Below are positions 12,238 to 40,300 of a DNA stretch of 44,307 bases, in pieces. Origin of the DNA: Bartonella tribocorum (lineage in GTDB: Bacteria > Pseudomonadota > Alphaproteobacteria > Rhizobiales > Rhizobiaceae); assembly GCF_002778015.1 (NCBI RefSeq), contig NZ_NJPP01000014.1:1-44307 (forward strand). Direction: 5' to 3'. Position numbers and translations under genes: made by a program. Numbering within the stretch: the stretch's first letter is position 1; each line of letters begins with the position of its first letter. Below the pieces are notes generated by a model. The model was given only the letters and a program-made list of their open reading frames with translations. It ran no database searches and was not told the origin of the DNA.

Positions 12238-13386
12238 TTAGCTAAACCAACAAAAATAATCATTAAAGAAGACAAAAAGCATAAAAAGAAGAACAAGGGA
12301 AAAACCTAAACGAAAAACAATTCCCTGAGTTTTAGCGGATGTTTTCCTCCCAGTAATGACCTCAATGACATGAAATAAAAGATGCCCACCATCAAGCGGT
12401 GGAATCGGAAAAAGGTTAATAAGCCCAACGCTTATTGAAAGAAAAGCAGCCAAATTCAACAAAGAGATAAAACCTGTCTCGCTCACTTTCCAAGCAACTT
12501 TAACGGTCTTAGAAGGCCCACTTAGCCGACAACGATCTTCTTTTCCTACGATTAAACGACTCATAAAAAGAATAGTTTGAGTGCTAATAAACACGGTACG
12601 GTTTAACGCTTCTCTTATAGCTGCTAGAAAACCATAGCGAATATGTTTTATATAAGCTGGGTCTAAACGCGCCGGATTATTTACATCAACAGGAACACCT
12701 ACACCAATCATAGGACTTTGTGTTTTATTCCCAAACCCATCATCTCGCTCAACAACTTTTGGGGTAATGACTGTTGTAAATGCCTGCCCCATACGTTCTA
12801 TTTTAAACTCTATCGGTTCTCTTCCATAAAAAGCAACATAATTCATCAAATCTTCAAAACTTTTAACCTGTCGACCATCCATTTCAACAAAACGGTCTCC
12901 TAATTCCAAACCGGACTGAATAGCAGGGCTCTCTTTTACCAAAAAACCCACAACAGGTTCAATGGCAACACGACCATAAGTAAAGAAAAAAAATGTTAGA
13001 GTAATAACAGTAAAAAGAGCATTGAAAAAGGGACCCGCAAAAACAGTTGCGGCTTTTTTCCAAGCATGCGCACTGACAAATGAACCATCAACAATCGGAG
13101 ATGATGGAGATGATAGCGTATCGTTGTTTTCCTCATCCCCAACGAACTTCACATAACCTCCTAAGGGGATAAATGCTAAACGCCACTTCGTGCCATGCTT
13201 ATCTGTGTAACTGGCTATTTGTGGTCCAAATCCAAGTGAAAAAACTGACGCCTTAATACCACACCACCGACCAATAAGATAATGCCCAAATTCGTGCACA
13301 AAAATGATAATCATAACGATGAAAAGGATACCCAAACTTCTTAAAAGAAAATCACCCATAGTGACCATATAATTTAAAAGTCCCAA
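12238..13386 (-). CDS. rseP: Site-2 protease RseP (M50 family)
   Basis: Inner-membrane zinc metalloprotease of regulated intramembrane proteolysis, 382 residues in the longest form. The zinc motif HEFGH is at residues 31-35 inside the first membrane segment. A PDZ domain covers about residues 145-210 (ESPAIQSGLELGDRFVEMDG). The third metal ligand is in NLFPIPPLDGGHLLFH near the end. The reported start is a TTG with a good GGGGAG element 8 bp upstream; in-frame ATGs at 13368 and 13359 are alternatives. The cdsA stop lies 15 bp upstream. Substrates are not known from this window; in related bacteria it acts in envelope stress signalling. Confidence 0.93.
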   Translation of the reverse strand: MGLLNYMVTMGDFLLRSLGILFIVMIIIFVHEFGHYLIGRWCGIKASVFSLGFGPQIASYTDKHGTKWRLAFIPLGGYVKFVGDEENNDTLSSPSSPIVDGSFVSAHAWKKAATVFAGPFFNALFTVITLTFFFFTYGRVAIEPVVGFLVKESPAIQSGLELGDRFVEMDGRQVKSFEDLMNYVAFYGREPIEFKIERMGQAFTTVITPKVVERDDGFGNKTQSPMIGVGVPVDVNNPARLDPAYIKHIRYGFLAAIREALNRTVFISTQTILFMSRLIVGKEDRCRLSGPSKTVKVAWKVSETGFISLLNLAAFLSISVGLINLFPIPPLDGGHLLFHVIEVITGRKTSAKTQGIVFRLGFSLVLLFMLFVFFNDYFCWFS

Positions 13387-13401
13387 AATATCTTCTCCCC
13401 A

Positions 13402-14229
13402 TTAAATCATACTAAAAAGATTAAAAGGTGCATCCATATCAGACATCAATGAACCAATTAAATAAAGGAGACAAGCCGCCCCTACCAATCCATCCATACG
13501 ATCCATAAAACCACCATGTCCAGGCAATAAAGAACCGGAATCTTTAACAGAAAAGCGTCTTTTAAGCCATGATTGTCCTAAATCACTCAATTGTGAAATA
13601 ATTGACAAAACAACTGGAAGGATTAGCACAAAAAAACTTGCTAAATTTATATCAAAAAATCCAACAGAAACCCATATACCTGCGAAAACGCCGACACATG
13701 TACCACCAAGTGCTCCTGACCATGTTTTATTGGGAGAAAATCGTGGCGCTAATTTAGGCCCCCCCAATGCACGTCCGATAAAATATCCACCGATATCGGT
13801 TCCCCATACTACCGAAAATAAGAAAATAACAACTTGGAACCCCAACATCTCATGATCCCGTAAAAAGCATAAAGCCGCCACAGGAAAAGATGCATATAAA
13901 AAACCACAAAAAACCCAACCACTGTTTTTTATAGATATAATAGCCAAAACCGCAGCCAACACGATTAAAACACAAAAAACCAATGAAGCAGATACATTCA
14001 ACACTAAAAGAAAGCCAAAAAACAAATAAAAAATGCTTACTAATATCTTTTGTAAAACACACCACTTCTCTTGAGTAATACGTATCCACTCATAAAGAAT
14101 AAAACCGCCAATACACCACGCAAACAGAAAAAAGGAGACCCCTCCCAACCATGTTAGATACAAAGCAATAACGCCAAATACAAAAGCTGTTAGAACACGA
14201 TAAACCAAATTAGACAAAACAACATCCAA
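13402..14229 (-). CDS. cdsA: Phosphatidate cytidylyltransferase CdsA
   Basis: Inner-membrane enzyme making CDP-diacylglycerol from phosphatidate and CTP, about 275 residues with eight or so hydrophobic segments. The family signature is complete near the C-terminus: SWLKRRFSVKDSGSLLPGH followed by GGFMDRMDGL, with KTWSGALGG upstream. The frame has no ATG at its start; the reported start is a TTG at 14229 without a clear ribosome binding site. The position between rseP and the frr side matches the usual frr-uppS-cdsA order, but intact uppS is missing upstream. The unusual start may be a consequence of decay of the upstream gene. Confidence 0.9.
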   Translation of the reverse strand: MDVVLSNLVYRVLTAFVFGVIALYLTWLGGVSFFLFAWCIGGFILYEWIRITQEKWCVLQKILVSIFYLFFGFLLVLNVSASLVFCVLIVLAAVLAIISIKNSGWVFCGFLYASFPVAALCFLRDHEMLGFQVVIFLFSVVWGTDIGGYFIGRALGGPKLAPRFSPNKTWSGALGGTCVGVFAGIWVSVGFFDINLASFFVLILPVVLSIISQLSDLGQSWLKRRFSVKDSGSLLPGHGGFMDRMDGLVGAACLLYLIGSLMSDMDAPFNLFSMI

Positions 14230-14327
14230 CCAATAAGAATAGCAAACACAAGCTCTAAAATTGATGCAACAAAAACGGCCCTCTCGAGTATTTTCATTTC
14301 ATACTTGTACAAATCTCTCTTAATAAT

Positions 14328-14640
14328 TTACCACAATTGATCTAGTTTACCAAGATAGCGCTTATAAGACGAATAATCAATGAAAACAGCTTCAAAAATC
14401 TTCCTTATCAGGGTTAATCCTAAAATAAGTTTTCAAATATTTTCTAAAACATAAAATGAAAAAGCGGCTGTCTACGCCCCATAACATCAGCTTTCTTTAC
14501 CCTACGCACATGTTTTTAATGAACGATAAGAGCAAAGTATTATTTGTTGCACTATATTATTTCCCAAAACTCCATCTTAGAATATTTGAGAAACCCTCAT
14601 AATATTTCTCATCATACAGTTTGACAAAAACATGCTAAAC
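14328..14640 (-). pseudogene. uppS: Possible decayed uppS (undecaprenyl diphosphate synthase) remnant
   Basis: The interval between frr and cdsA normally holds uppS in alphaproteobacteria. Here it contains no open gene. At 14328-14418 on the minus strand one frame gives NPDKEDF and, after a one-base shift in a T-run, EAVFIDYSSYKRYLGKL before a stop. This resembles the UppS C-terminus (WPDF-x-DFEAAL-x-Y-x-x-RxRRFGG). At 14572-14595 another frame gives GFSNILRW, resembling the SNFLLWQ block, although its distance from the C-terminal piece is longer than in intact enzymes. The N-terminal MDGNGRWA motif was not found. The evidence is short and rests partly on synteny; 14641-14875 shows nothing convincing. 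Confidence 0.35.
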
Positions 14641-14875
14641 AAAAAAATCTCATTATGCTGTAATAGTGTCCTCCAGTAAAGAACAGAACGCACTCACAGA
14701 TTAAAGAATAAAAGCATCAACTCTTTCAAATCAATCTTTCCCCTATCGAAATGATTAAACAATAAAACAGCTCTCTGTATCACACCTTGCTATCACAGTG
14801 CACATCTATGCTCTTATCCAATAAAAATAATTTACACGCTGGGAATAGAATATCTTTTCTAGCGAAAAAATCGTC

Positions 14876-15436
14876 TTAAACGTGCATAATTTCAGATTCT
14901 TTCACGGCTAAAATTTTATCGATATCAGCAATAGTTTCATCTGTGAGTTTTTGAACTTTCTCGGATAAACCATGGGCTTCATCTTTGCCAATTTCACCAT
15001 CTTTTTCTAATTTTTTCAAATTATCCATACCATCACGACGAACATGACGTGTAGCAACACGCGCTTGCTCTGCATAGTGATGCGCAATTTTTACAAGTTC
15101 TTTACGGCGCTCTTCATTCAACTCAGGCAAAGGAATACGTAAATTCGTACCATCAGTTATGGGGTTCAAACCAAGACCAGAATCGCGAATAGCACGCTCG
15201 ACAGCTCCTACCATCGTTTTATCCCATACAGAAACGGAAAGCATCCGAGGTTCGGGAACAGAAATATTCGCAACCTGATTAATGTGTACAACAGAACCAT
15301 AAGATTCAACGGTCAACGGCTCTAATAAACTCGCTGATGCCCGTCCCGTCCGCAAGCCACCTAATTCATGTTTAAAAGCCGTAATAGCACCATCCATGCG
15401 TCGTTTCAGATCATCCATAATTGATGCAACATTCAT
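14876..15436 (-). CDS. frr: Ribosome recycling factor
   Basis: Cytoplasmic factor that splits post-termination ribosomes together with EF-G. With the ATG at 15436 the product is 186 residues, the normal RRF length, beginning [23 protein letters not shown] lies 8 bases upstream. A longer in-frame start exists at 15508, but it would overlap pyrH and add an atypical extension. Conserved blocks are [20 protein letters not shown] and [25 protein letters not shown] (in two adjoining stretches), with [19 protein letters not shown] near the end. It is the last gene of the rpsB-tsf-pyrH-frr set. Confidence 0.95.
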
Positions 15437-15473
15437 ATTTTTGTCTCCTTCAATTGTTCTTTGAAGCTTATCC

Positions 15474-16193
15474 TTATTCCGATACCATTGTAAAGCGCCC
15501 TGTTCCATTCAAGACTTTAGCTAAACCACCTTTTTCATGAATAGAATACACAATAATTGGTACATTGTTCTCACGGGCTAAAGTGACCGCCGTTGAATCC
15601 ATAACCGATAATCCCCATTGCAAAATTTCAACATGTGTTAATTGGTCAAAACGCTTAGCTGTAGGGTCTATCTTTGGATCTGCTGAATAAATACCATCAA
15701 CTTGTGTTCCTTTAAGAAGGACATCTGCACCAATTTCTGCTGCACGTAAAGTCGCAGCAGAATCAGTGGTAAAAAAGGGATTTCCTGTACCACCCGCAAA
15801 AATAACAACTTTTCCCTGATTCATATAAGCTATTGCTTTACGTTGCGAAAAACTTTCACAAATTTGTGGCATAGCAATCGCAGAGAGTACAACAGTTTCA
15901 ACCCCTAGTTTTGTCAATGATGTTCGCAATGCCAAAGAATTAATAGCCGTTGCAAGCATTCCCATATGATCACCTGTCACACGGTCACCACCATGCGAAG
16001 CAACAGCAACGCCACGAAAAATATTTCCCCCACCGATAACAACTGCGACTTCTATCCCCATCGCGCGCACTTCTGCAATATCATCAGCAATACGGTCGAC
16101 AACAGAAACATCAATACCAAAGCTCTGCCCCCCCATAAGAGCTTCACCAGAAGCTTTTAAAAGGATACGTTTATACGGAAGTGCTAATGCCAT
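15474..16193 (-). CDS. pyrH: Uridylate kinase PyrH
   Basis: UMP kinase of pyrimidine nucleotide synthesis, 239 residues, member of the amino-acid kinase fold. The N-terminus [15 protein letters not shown] holds the phosphate-binding Lys-Ser-Gly element. [24 protein letters not shown] and [16 protein letters not shown] are family blocks, and the last is part of the nucleotide site. ATG is preceded by GGGGAGattgtga. A gap of about 160 bp containing a hairpin separates it from tsf, while frr begins 37 bp after its stop. Confidence 0.96.
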
Positions 16194-31520: not shown

Positions 31521-34500
31521 TTATTCAGCAACGGCTTCAGCTGTCATATTTGTCAACATAGCCTTGGCTACTTCGTTATTACTAGACTTACGCTGCTCAT
31601 CTACAATCAAATCATCACGAACTGCTGCAATACGACGAATTTGAGAAATCGTTCCCCCTGTACCAGCAGGAATAAGACGACCGACAATAACGTTCTCTTT
31701 AAGTCCTTGTAAAGTATCAATTTTACCAGAAACCGCTGCTTCGGTCAGAACACGCGTTGTTTCCTGAAACGATGCCGCCGAAATGAAAGAAGGCGTTTGA
31801 AGAGAAGCTTTTGTAATTCCAAGAAGAATGGGATTACCAGATGCTGGTTTTTTCCCTTCTGCAATCAAATTATCATTGATTTCATCAAGTTCAATACGAT
31901 CAACATTATCACCTGGAATATAACCAGAATCTCCAGAATCAGTAATTTCAACCTTTTGCAACATTTGACGAACAATCACTTCAATGTGCTTGTCATTGAT
32001 AAGAACCCCTTGCAAACGATAAACCTCCTGAATCTCATTAACAAGGTAAGATGCCAAAGCTTCAACACCCTTAATCGCTAAGATATCATGAGGGGCTGGA
32101 TTACCATCAAGGATATAATCACCCTTTTCAATTTGATCGCCTTCTTGAAAGTGAAACAACTTACCTTTTGGAATCAAATATTCTACTGCCTCAAGAGTTT
32201 CATCATTTGGTTCAATGATAATACGACGCTTATTCTTATAACCACGGCCAAATCGAATTGTACCACTCACTTCAGCAATAATCGCATGATCCTTTGGACG
32301 ACGCGCTTCAAAAAGCTCTGCCACACGTGGTAGACCACCTGTAATATCTTTCGTTTTGGCACTTTCCATTGGCAGACGAGCGATAACATCACCAGCTTTA
32401 ACATGCGCACCAAGCTCAACAGAAAGAATAGTTTCCACTGACATCATATAACGGGCTTCACCTCCCTTATACAATTTAGCAATGGATTCACCTTCTTTAT
32501 CTGCCTGGATAATAATAGCTGGTTTAAGCTCCGCACCACGTGGATTAGCACGCCAATCAATCACCAAACGCTTCGTAATTCCCGTCGATTCATCCGCTGT
32601 TTCAGTGACCGATAAACCATCAACCATATCTTCAAAACCCACATAACCTTCAACTTCCGTTAAAATTGGACGTGTATAAGGATCCCATTCTGCTATACGT
32701 TGGCCACGCTTAACCACATCACCATCATCAACAAAAATATGCGCTCCATAGCTAATACGATGCACAACGCGCTCTTTTCCTAACTCATCCTTGATAAGGA
32801 TAGCCATATTACGCCCCATAACGACCAAGTGGCCTTCAGAGTTACGCGCCACATTACGGTTACGAATTTCCACCGTACCTTCATAAGATGCCTCTAAATA
32901 CGATGAATCAACAACCTGCGCAGTTCCTCCTAAGTGGAAAGTGCGCATAGTAAGCTGCGTTCCCGGCTCACCAATTGACTGAGCAGCAATAACACCAACC
33001 GCTTCTCCCTGATTAACAGGTGTTCCACGCGCCAAATCACGGCCATAGCATTTTGCACAAACACCAATACGCGTTTCACATGTTAAAGCAGAACGAATTT
33101 GAACAGATTGAATTCCAGCTTCTTCAATCTTCGCGACATCAGCTTCCTCAATCATCGCTCCACCTTCAAGAATAACCTCTCCAGAGATAGGATGTAAAAT
33201 ATCAACAAGGGCTGTACGACCAAGAATTCTTTGCCCAAGAGAAGCAACTATTTGTCCTGCATCAACAATTGGCTGCATCGTAAGCCCTTTTGCTGTCCCA
33301 CAATCAACTGCTGAAATAATAGCATCCTGTGCAACATCAACAAGACGCCGTGTGAGATAACCAGAGTTCGCCGTTTTTAACGCAGTATCCGCAAGTCCTT
33401 TACGCGCACCATGTGTGGAGTTGAAGTATTCGTTAACAGTTAAACCTTCCTTAAAATTTGAAATAATCGGTGTTTCAATAATTTCACCCGATGGTTTTGC
33501 CATTAATCCACGCATACCAGCCAATTGTCTCATTTGGTTAGCAGAACCACGGGCACCAGAATGCGACATCATATAAATCGAATTCATGGGGCGTTGACGA
33601 CCTGTTTTAGGATCAAAATCAACGGCTTGAATTCGTTTCATCATTTCATCGGCAACACGGTCTGTACATTTACCCCAAGCATCTACAACCTTATTGTATT
33701 TTTCACCTTGTGTAATCAAACCATCATTATATTGCTGTTCGTATTCCTTAGCCAAAGCCTCTGTTTCTGCAACTAAACGTGACTTGCTGTCAGGAATAAC
33801 CATATCATCCTTACCGAATGAAATTCCTGCACGACAAGCATAAGAAAAACCAAGCTGCATAATACGGTCGCAAAAAATAACCGTCTCTTTTTGTCCACAG
33901 TGGCGATAAACATGATCAATCATTTTAGAAATATTCTTTTTTGTCATTTCTTGATTGATAATATCAAATGAAATATTCGGATTTTTGGGCAAAAGCTCAC
34001 CGATAATCAAACGACCAGGTGTCGTATCATAAAGTTTAGCAACTTCTTTTCCATCCTTGCCCATATTCTTAACACGGCCTTTAATCTTCGTATGAAGCGT
34101 TACAACCTTATTTTCCAAGGCATAATGAAGCTCACCTATATCGGCAAAAGCCATTCCCTCACCTGGTTCTTTTTCAGAAACAATCGAGAGATAATAAAGC
34201 CCAAGAACCATATCCTGTGATGGAACAATAATGGGGGCACCATTAGCTGGATGAAGAATATTATTAGTCGACATCATCAAAACACGTGCTTCAAGCTGTG
34301 CTTCAAGAGAAAGTGGAACGTGAACTGCCATCTGATCTCCATCAAAGTCCGCATTAAATGCCGTGCATACCAATGGATGAAGTTGGATAGCCTTGCCTTC
34401 AATTAAGATAGGTTCAAAAGCTTGAATCCCCAAACGGTGCAATGTTGGCGCACGATTGAGTAAAACAGGATGTTCACGAATAACCTCATCTAAGATATCC

Positions 34501-35732
34501 CAAACTTCTGGATGCTCTTTTTCAACAAGCTTTTTTGCTTGTTTTACTGTTGAGGAATATCCTTTTGCATCAAGCCGCGCATAAATAAAGGGCTTAAATA
34601 ATTCAAGGGCCATTTTCTTGGGAAGACCACATTGATGTAATTTTAATTCAGGACCTGTCACGATAACAGAACGACCCGAGTAATCAACACGCTTTCCAAG
34701 CAGATTTTGACGGAAACGTCCTTGCTTCCCCTTTAACATATCTGAAAGAGATTTTAACGGACGCTTATTGGCTCCCGTAATCACACGCCCACGCCGCCCA
34801 TTATCAAACAATGCGTCAACAGCCTCTTGCACCATGCGTTTTTCATTGCGCACAATAATTCCAGGAGCACGCAATTCAATCAGCCGTTTCAAACGGTTAT
34901 TACGATTAATAACACGCCGATAAAGATCATTCAGATCTGATGTTGCAAAACGTCCACCATCAAGGGGAACCAATGGACGTAAATCCGGTGGAATAACCGG
35001 AATTGTTTTCATAATCATCCATTCTGGCTTATTCCCAGATTCAAGAAAATTTTCAACGATCTTCAATCGTTTAATCAATTTTTTCTGCTTTAACTCTGAA
35101 GTTGTTTCAGCTAATTCAAGACGCAAATCATTAGCGATCTTATCTAATTCCATACTCGCTAAAAGCTCGTAAATAGCCTCAGCGCCAATCATTGCTGTAA
35201 ACTGATCTTCTCCAAACTCATCAATAGCAAGCATATATTCTTCTTCAGAAAGAAGCTGGTAGAGCTTAAGAGATGTCAACCCTGGTTCGGTTACAATGTA
35301 ATTCTCAAAATAAAGAACACGCTCAATATCTTTTAAAGTCAAATCTAAAAGTGTAGAAATACGGCCTGGTAACGATTTAAGGAACCATATATGCGCAACA
35401 GGTGCTGCAAGCTCAATGTGCCCCATACGCTCACGACGTACACGCGAAAGAGTAACTTCCACACCACATTTTTCACAAATAATACCCTTATATTTCATGC
35501 GTTTATATTTACCGCATAGACATTCATAGTCTTTAATCGGGCCAAATATACGTGCACAAAAAAGACCATCACGCTCTGGTTTAAAAGTCCGATAATTAAT
35601 AGTCTCAGGCTTCTTAATCTCACCATACGACCAGGACAAAATTTTCTCAGGACTCGCAATGGAAATGCGAATAGAGTCAAATGTCTGCGCTGGCGCTTGA
35701 GGATTGAAAAGATTCATGACCTCGTGGTTCAT
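31521..35732 (-). CDS. rpoC: DNA-directed RNA polymerase subunit beta'
   Basis: Largest catalytic RNA polymerase subunit, 1403 residues from the ATG at 35732, which is preceded by GAAGGAG and gives the family N-terminus [22 protein letters not shown] five codons upstream is less likely. The N-terminal zinc site is [20 protein letters not shown], the catalytic magnesium motif is [14 protein letters not shown], and the second zinc site is near the [15 protein letters not shown] block. The trigger-loop region contains TGLTRR-like [17 protein letters not shown]. It follows rpoB after about 170 bp with a hairpin and ends at a strong terminator. Confidence 0.98.
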
Positions 35733-35869
35733 GCTGTTCTCCTTCAAAGATTCTTAGAACCTGTTGTAATATCTCGTTCATTTTATAACAGATCTTCTTT
35801 TAAAGACATTTACTTTAAAAAACGATCCGTACGACCCGAATAAAGTTATTGAGCCTTTTAAAATAATCA

Positions 35870-35901: not shown

Positions 35902-40053
<4,152 letters not shown>

Positions 40054-40300
40054 CGTCGCTCCTTGATCCTTACTCTTCAAGGTAGACCAACCTTGAAAGC
40101 CTTACATCATTAATCTGCATACGCAGACCAGTTCACTTGACACCCAATAATGAGCATCGTTAACTCCCCCATCAACAAAAGCCTTTCATTAACTCGGCTC
40201 TATGATGAGGGATGAATAACCCAAACCTATTCCCATTACTATGATTAAACCGTTGGAAAAAGGTTTTGTATCCATTATCTTTCCTCTTTTTAAAGAGAGA

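Follow-up and report, generated by a model that had tools for sequence, protein, structure and literature searches.

Undecaprenyl diphosphate synthase (UppS), a cis-prenyltransferase of family PF01255, is considered essential for bacteria that have a cell wall, and antibiotic development has targeted it. Mycobacteria have other cis-prenyltransferases, which make decaprenyl diphosphate. Alphaproteobacteria hold a pool of all-trans long-chain diphosphates for ubiquinone, and the known use of IspB, an all-trans octaprenyl/decaprenyl diphosphate synthase of family PF00348, is to supply the side chain of ubiquinone; to our knowledge, it has no established role in peptidoglycan. The accessible text of a review of intracellular bacteria reports uppS in almost all of the peptidoglycan-positive genomes surveyed except those of mycobacteria, which are described there as lacking uppS and using other carriers; the word Bartonella does not occur in its main text (PMC5814848). 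In Rickettsia parkeri, as far as the accessible text of that study goes, the upstream isoprenoid pathway is missing and undecaprenyl diphosphate (C55-PP) is attributed to UppS (PMC6854040). For Bartonella itself, the main text of a metabolic reconstruction of B. quintana has no words starting with prenyl or undecaprenyl (PMC11983613), a drug-target study of B. bacilliformis lists uppP, murG and murE in its accessible text, with no uppS (PMC7416641), and a complete peptidoglycan gene set is reported, in the part of the paper available, for ant-gut Bartonellaceae (PMC6044324). No report of uppS loss in Bartonella came up among the papers listed by searches of open-licence PMC articles, a collection from which subscription papers are largely absent; the loss may be recorded in pathway databases or in other papers.

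The slot between frr and cdsA

We analysed a 44,307-nucleotide stretch of a Bartonella genome, here called the window. It contains part of the conserved gene order rpsB-tsf-pyrH-frr-(uppS)-cdsA-rseP, for which an original prediction from the sequence had claimed that uppS is missing from its place. The features concerned are as follows.

12238-13386, minus strand: rseP-like membrane protease gene, downstream of cdsA (ORF list; name assumed by us from the gene order; used in the tree)
13402-14229, minus strand: cdsA, phosphatidate cytidylyltransferase, with a TTG start (PF01148, E 1.2e-50)
14230-14875, minus strand: decayed uppS slot, between frr and cdsA (ORF lists, stop-free run, alignment)
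14343-14415, minus strand: candidate remnant of the UppS C-terminus, consisting of NPDKEDF, a frame shift and EAVFIDYSSYKRYLGKL (aligned to the C-terminus of the F02 protein)
14876-15508, minus strand: frr, ribosome recycling factor, ORF as listed (PF01765, E 4.9e-63, residues 45-208)
15474-16193, minus strand: UMP kinase gene, which we take to be pyrH, a member of the conserved order (ORF list; name from the gene order; protein used in the tree)

The slot is the exact gap, of about 650 bases, between the cdsA ORF and the frr ORF, the true start of frr probably lying further inside the listed ORF. Across the six frames, its longest stop-free run is 57 codons, compared to 246 codons in the equivalent intervals of Bartonella sp. 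F02 and of a B. australis-like genome (probably B. australis), both of which carry uppS. In all 39 non-Bartonella loci fetched with frr, an intact uppS stands between frr and cdsA. The gene is thus missing from its conserved slot, as had been claimed. No Rfam family was found in 13300-15600 at E up to 1, and a search of the slot against a plasmid collection returned three records, with matches confined to the frr part, and was uninformative. In its frr protein, the window matches Bartonella sp. B1099, sp. AU16XJBT and B. elizabethae at 98% identity and B. tribocorum at 97%. Elsewhere in the window, two very long ORFs on the minus strand (31521-35747 and 35902-40080) are rpoC and rpoB, and are ordinary.

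The same prediction had read NPDKEDF, joined by a shift of frame to EAVFIDYSSYKRYLGKL, as a possible remnant of the UppS C-terminus. A stop follows NPDKEDF directly, at 14392-14394, and EAVFIDYSSYKRYLGKL continues from 14393 in a different frame. Both peptides are present, positioned where the UppS C-terminus would be expected, just upstream of cdsA, and the fragment was placed at the UppS C-terminus in a multiple alignment with the intact uppS of F02 and of the B. australis-like genome. The match was equalled by 21 of 1000 dinucleotide shuffles in the comparison to F02 uppS and by 12 of 1000 in that to the B. australis-like uppS. Taken alone, the window's own remnant is marginal; the reading as a C-terminal remnant is probably right but not self-standing. 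Over the whole gene, the match of the slot to uppS was at chance level (40 of 200 shuffles scored as high), and the translated profile search that had been proposed for this interval gave no score with the UppS profile. The TTG start of cdsA had been offered as a sign of recent decay. It is not such a sign, because it is also found in the B. australis-like genome with its intact uppS; of the 60 loci tallied, 35 have TTG there. Nor was the decay in this lineage recent, considering that named relatives in the window's group are also without uppS and that little similarity is left.

Distribution of UppS in the genus, family and phylum

The assembly from which the window comes, as contig 6, spans 2.09 Mb in 99 contigs and has a completeness rating of 100%. 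PF01255 gave no match over its curated cut-off in this genome, and matched in all 14 control genomes. A second profile, built from 15 UppS proteins that came from Bartonella and its relatives, was searched at E up to 10; it also gave no match in the window genome. The suggestion that uppS might be carried elsewhere in the genome was therefore not sustained by either profile. Across the genus, PF01255 matched in 15 of 71 Bartonella genomes and in none of the other 56, and the gene is also missing from single-contig genomes. One of the 56, G063, is 85% complete and is likewise without a MraY match; it has a second PAP2 match, otherwise seen in 13 genomes, all of them PF01255-positive. Because of this second match and its incompleteness, we counted G063 as missing data, and 55 UppS-less genomes remain.

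The Bartonella-trained profile matched in 23 of the 71 genomes, namely the same 15, six with stop-containing fragments (G048, 7.6e-12; G029, 5.3e-11; G038, 2.2e-5; G041, 3e-4; G033, 0.001; G070, 0.02) and two with weak matches inside a 647-residue frame, which are probably due to chance. Position confirmed the fragment as a slot remnant for G029 and G048 only. At E up to 10, this profile found no further intact copy of uppS in the genus. In a family-wide sample, UppS was present in 149 of 151 genomes, both misses being Bartonella (149 of 149 outside the genus). A phylum-wide sample gave 196 of 199, the misses being the same two Bartonella and G249 (196 of 197 outside the genus); incompleteness is the likely cause for G249, which is rated 95% complete. 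The loss is close to unique to Bartonella in these samples. We regard it as practically certain that uppS has been lost from the window genome and from most of the genus.

Decay in place and repeated loss

Within Bartonella, uppS occupies the same slot in B. tamiae, in a large-genome group (probably insect-gut Bartonella, to judge from genome size), in sp. F02 and in the B. australis-like genome. In one member of the large-genome group the gene is split, apparently by a single frameshift (G014:C1:1136182-1136882), with two abutting frames covering profile positions 1-74 and 73-234; this is either a sequencing error or a fresh loss. We scanned 38 intervals without an intact uppS, those of 37 named relatives and of the window, the slot being fully sequenced in all, with 500 random sequences modelled on the window interval as control. 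Similarity to UppS exceeded the best of the 500 controls in six intervals (sp. DB5-6, B. washoeensis, sp. A05, WD12.1, B. clarridgeiae and B. melophagi). Five of these remnants lie near the expected diagonal, and that of B. clarridgeiae is displaced, in an interval shrunk to 444 bases. In the other 32, the window included, similarity did not rise above the best control. In relatives, uppS decayed in place between frr and cdsA, as in a unitary pseudogene, and it is there that the predicted uppS remnant was borne out. The prediction had set against itself an unrelated spacer in sister species. Close sisters are indeed without uppS, but where decay has gone less far the spacer can still be recognised as uppS.

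The C-terminal shuffle test gave results at or near chance for the close relatives L017, L018, L020, L026, L027 and L041; for L024, 23 and 37 of 1000 shuffles scored as high. In comparisons of the window to ten relatives, identity was 75-89% in the interval, as against 88-96% in frr and 82-94% in cdsA, as expected for less constrained sequence. The slot of the clarridgeiae/rochalimae group (L047, L049, L050 and L052) is down to 417-451 bases, with 20-23% G+C.

In a six-protein FastTree of 55 loci, the B. australis-like genome and F02 fell within a clade whose other species are all UppS-less; the relevant branches have supports between 0.57 and 1.0. In a second tree, computed from eight proteins of 21 genomes by a quick search under LG+G4 with no mixture model, F02 (with uppS) and A05 (without) are sisters with an SH-aLRT of 99. 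On this tree, the presence or absence of uppS requires three changes, and the starred branches force two. Constraining the UppS-less genomes to one clade costs 62 log-likelihood units and was rejected (p-AU 0.0135). Thus, with uppS kept by two genomes inside the UppS-less clade and a single clade rejected, the gene was lost repeatedly. The UppS proteins of the B. australis-like genome and of F02 share 83% identity, whereas the five other Bartonella proteins aligned are 63-68% identical to the former. This identity and the ancestral slot argue for inheritance, not regain, in these two genomes. Counting losses only, we read about four, and at least two, as unresolved forks could reduce the number to two: one in the clarridgeiae group, one in the large group with the window, one in the bacilliformis and melophagi group, and one in A05.

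Wall and lipid-cycle genes retained

Apart from uppS, the peptidoglycan lipid cycle remains in place in UppS-less Bartonella, as shown by gene content. The window genome has a division and wall cluster, of which murE, murF, mraY, murD, murG, murC and ftsZ pass their curated cut-offs; the names of ftsI, ftsW and ftsQ come from best matches below cut-off. The gene set of the MraY/MurG lipid cycle is present: mraY, murG, a flippase and a candidate C55-PP phosphatase of the PAP2 family. MraY was found in 70 of 71 Bartonella genomes, G063 being the exception and the match in G039 only partial, and MurJ and a PAP2 phosphatase were found in all 71. The PAP2 protein of the window genome is closest to models of undecaprenyl-diphosphate phosphatase, under their cut-offs. 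BacA/UppP, the usual undecaprenyl diphosphate phosphatase, occurs in 1 of the 71 genomes (B. tamiae). In two genomes, murJ is split into two overlapping frames (G022:C2:1661327-1662633 and G043:C1:328012-329348). A DgkA-type kinase was found in 13 of 71 genomes: B. tamiae, where the match is weak, and 12 members of the large-genome group. It is absent from the 57 genomes outside the large-genome and tamiae group, the two that keep UppS among them.

Each of the 71 genomes, with UppS or without, has two PF00348 matches with full-length open frames, in the window genome a farnesyl diphosphate synthase and a long-chain synthase, the latter closest to solved octaprenyl and decaprenyl synthases. The idea that an additional trans-prenyl synthase had been gained as a replacement finds no counterpart in these numbers and was rejected, the only extra copies being fragments. 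These are partial copies of the farnesyl diphosphate synthase gene, immediately downstream of the complete one, in the three genomes listed here.

G023:C1:1752501-1753291: extra farnesyl diphosphate synthase fragment
G001:C1:788268-788456: extra farnesyl diphosphate synthase fragment
G051:C83:65754-66065: extra farnesyl diphosphate synthase fragment

UbiA matched in all 71 Bartonella genomes, in 69 over the cut-off, and IspB therefore still has its role in ubiquinone. The gene is in two pieces, with IspB intact, in two UppS-less genomes (G011:C1:927102-927978 and G038:C1:439533-440398); if these splits are genuine and do not stem from sequencing errors, IspB would have to serve another purpose in these genomes.

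We also compared 21 of the 71 genomes for protein columns that never vary among all ten UppS-bearing genomes of the set but differ in 8 or more of its 11 UppS-less ones. MraY has a single column of this kind, as does each of the two controls, MurC and MurF, and there is none in MurG, FtsW, MurD, IspA or IspB. By this test, no retuning of IspA, IspB, MraY, MurG or FtsW is visible, as they have no more clade-specific columns than MurC and MurF. Weak PF00953 matches near the PAP2 gene were likewise discarded as a candidate. Their counterpart in the window genome has only a sub-threshold DUF2232 match, and this DUF2232-like gene lies in a neighbourhood of ribosomal-protein and fatty-acid genes.

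Source of the carrier lipid

With uppS gone from its slot, the cell needs another source of carrier lipid, a consequence that the original prediction had drawn and that stands. We favour, with a probability of roughly 0.45, a home-made polyprenyl phosphate produced with no cis-prenyltransferase as the peptidoglycan carrier, most simply the all-trans C50 lipid of IspB. IspA would make farnesyl diphosphate, IspB would extend it to the all-trans C50 diphosphate otherwise made for ubiquinone, the PAP2 phosphatase would trim this to decaprenyl monophosphate, which would then serve MraY, MurG and MurJ. The sequence IspA, IspB, PAP2, MraY is the simplest self-contained route, within which we infer what the carrier is, what PAP2 does and in which order the changes came about. 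According to one study, MraY in membrane vesicles from other bacteria accepts geranyl, farnesyl, C55 and longer chains, as well as dolichol-type and even alkyl phosphates (PMC12560707). Several lineages lost uppS with no visible change in IspA, IspB or MraY, and the capability thus probably predates the losses. The fuller statement, that UppS-less Bartonella build peptidoglycan on all-trans decaprenyl phosphate diverted from ubiquinone by an ability older than the losses, is somewhat less probable than the general one and is put forward tentatively. Against the IspB route, the presence of IspB is accounted for by ubiquinone alone, and the column comparison reveals no adaptation in IspA, IspB, MraY, MurG or FtsW. 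Other Pseudomonadota with trans-prenyl synthases keep UppS (196 of 197 genomes sampled outside the genus), and therefore something further must have changed in Bartonella.

Ordinary undecaprenyl diphosphate could instead come from an enzyme unlike the cis-prenyltransferases, or from IspA or IspB with an added cis activity, a possibility that we consider unlikely but worth serious attention. A non-homologous gene would evade all of the profile searches used, and the repeated loss suggests that a replacement was already in place in the ancestor of the UppS-less clade. However, the number of full-length PF00348 frames is equal with and without UppS, IspA and IspB have no clade-specific change, and we know of no family outside PF01255 that makes long cis chains. 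Somewhat more doubtful is that a ready-made carrier, for example dolichyl phosphate, is taken from host blood or serum. The loss falls within one clade, apart from one incomplete genome, and this clade corresponds, we assume, to the blood-borne species. As far as the available texts go, B. quintana was cultured on blood-containing agar, so that its culture is compatible with salvage (PMC11983613), MraY takes dolichol-type chains in vitro (PMC12560707), and the carrier of Rickettsia parkeri draws on host isoprenoids (PMC6854040). In contrast, phosphorylation of a salvaged polyprenol could proceed by a DgkA-type kinase, among other routes, but none of the 57 genomes mentioned above has this enzyme; salvage would therefore need a phosphorylated lipid, which speaks against free polyprenol but not against its phosphate. 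Salvage is also disfavoured by DXR-II, an enzyme of the MEP pathway, listed for six Bartonella species in the accessible part of one paper; four of them are UppS-less here, and the remaining pair, B. henselae and B. quintana, falls outside our named loci (PMC3847144). Together with the retention of IspA and IspB, this listing indicates that isoprenoids are apparently home-made.

That the carrier has become dispensable, with little or no peptidoglycan being made, is very improbable. Reduced peptidoglycan is described for some obligate intracellular bacteria in the available text of the wall-gene review (PMC5814848), but murC-F, mraY, murG, ftsW and an ftsI-like gene are intact in the window genome, and the counts for MurJ (71/71) and MraY (70/71) point the same way. 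MraY is also among the measured proteins of B. quintana, a species outside our named loci (PMC11983613). An assembly gap or a failed search is scarcely credible as the general cause. The window genome is indeed in 99 contigs, and a gap is the probable cause for G063 at 85% completeness. Yet the slot is fully sequenced in the window and in the 37 named relatives, single-contig genomes are without the gene as well, and all 14 controls match; incompleteness was for these reasons rejected as an explanation across the genus.

Comparison with known systems

UppS has indeed been lost; most of the genus shares this loss, which raises a well-defined biochemical question. Bartonella is the sole genus without UppS among the 199 genomes of the phylum sample, bar the one genome rated 95% complete. 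To make a wall without any cis-prenyltransferase, a bacterium needs an enzyme not yet recognised, a carrier lipid of another kind or a supply salvaged from its host. Bartonella includes species with and species without uppS, which can be compared, and UppS should not count as a drug target in the species that are without it.

Among known genes, it is uppS (PF01255) that the slot and its orientation match, as do the remnants in relatives; the window copy is no longer a gene. The long-chain synthase of the window genome is closest to the octaprenyl/decaprenyl synthases of the IspB kind, and IspB is the proposed source of the carrier. Mycobacteria resemble UppS-less Bartonella in being peptidoglycan-positive and listed without uppS, as far as the accessible text of the review extends (PMC5814848); UppS-less Bartonella differ from them in having no PF01255 match whatsoever. 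Rickettsia parkeri, in the part of the study available, is likewise a host-associated bacterium that builds a wall with a gap in the synthesis of its carrier lipid (PMC6854040). The gap itself differs, however: R. parkeri is without the upstream isoprenoid steps and its C55-PP is attributed to UppS, whereas UppS-less Bartonella keep the prenyl synthases and miss UppS.
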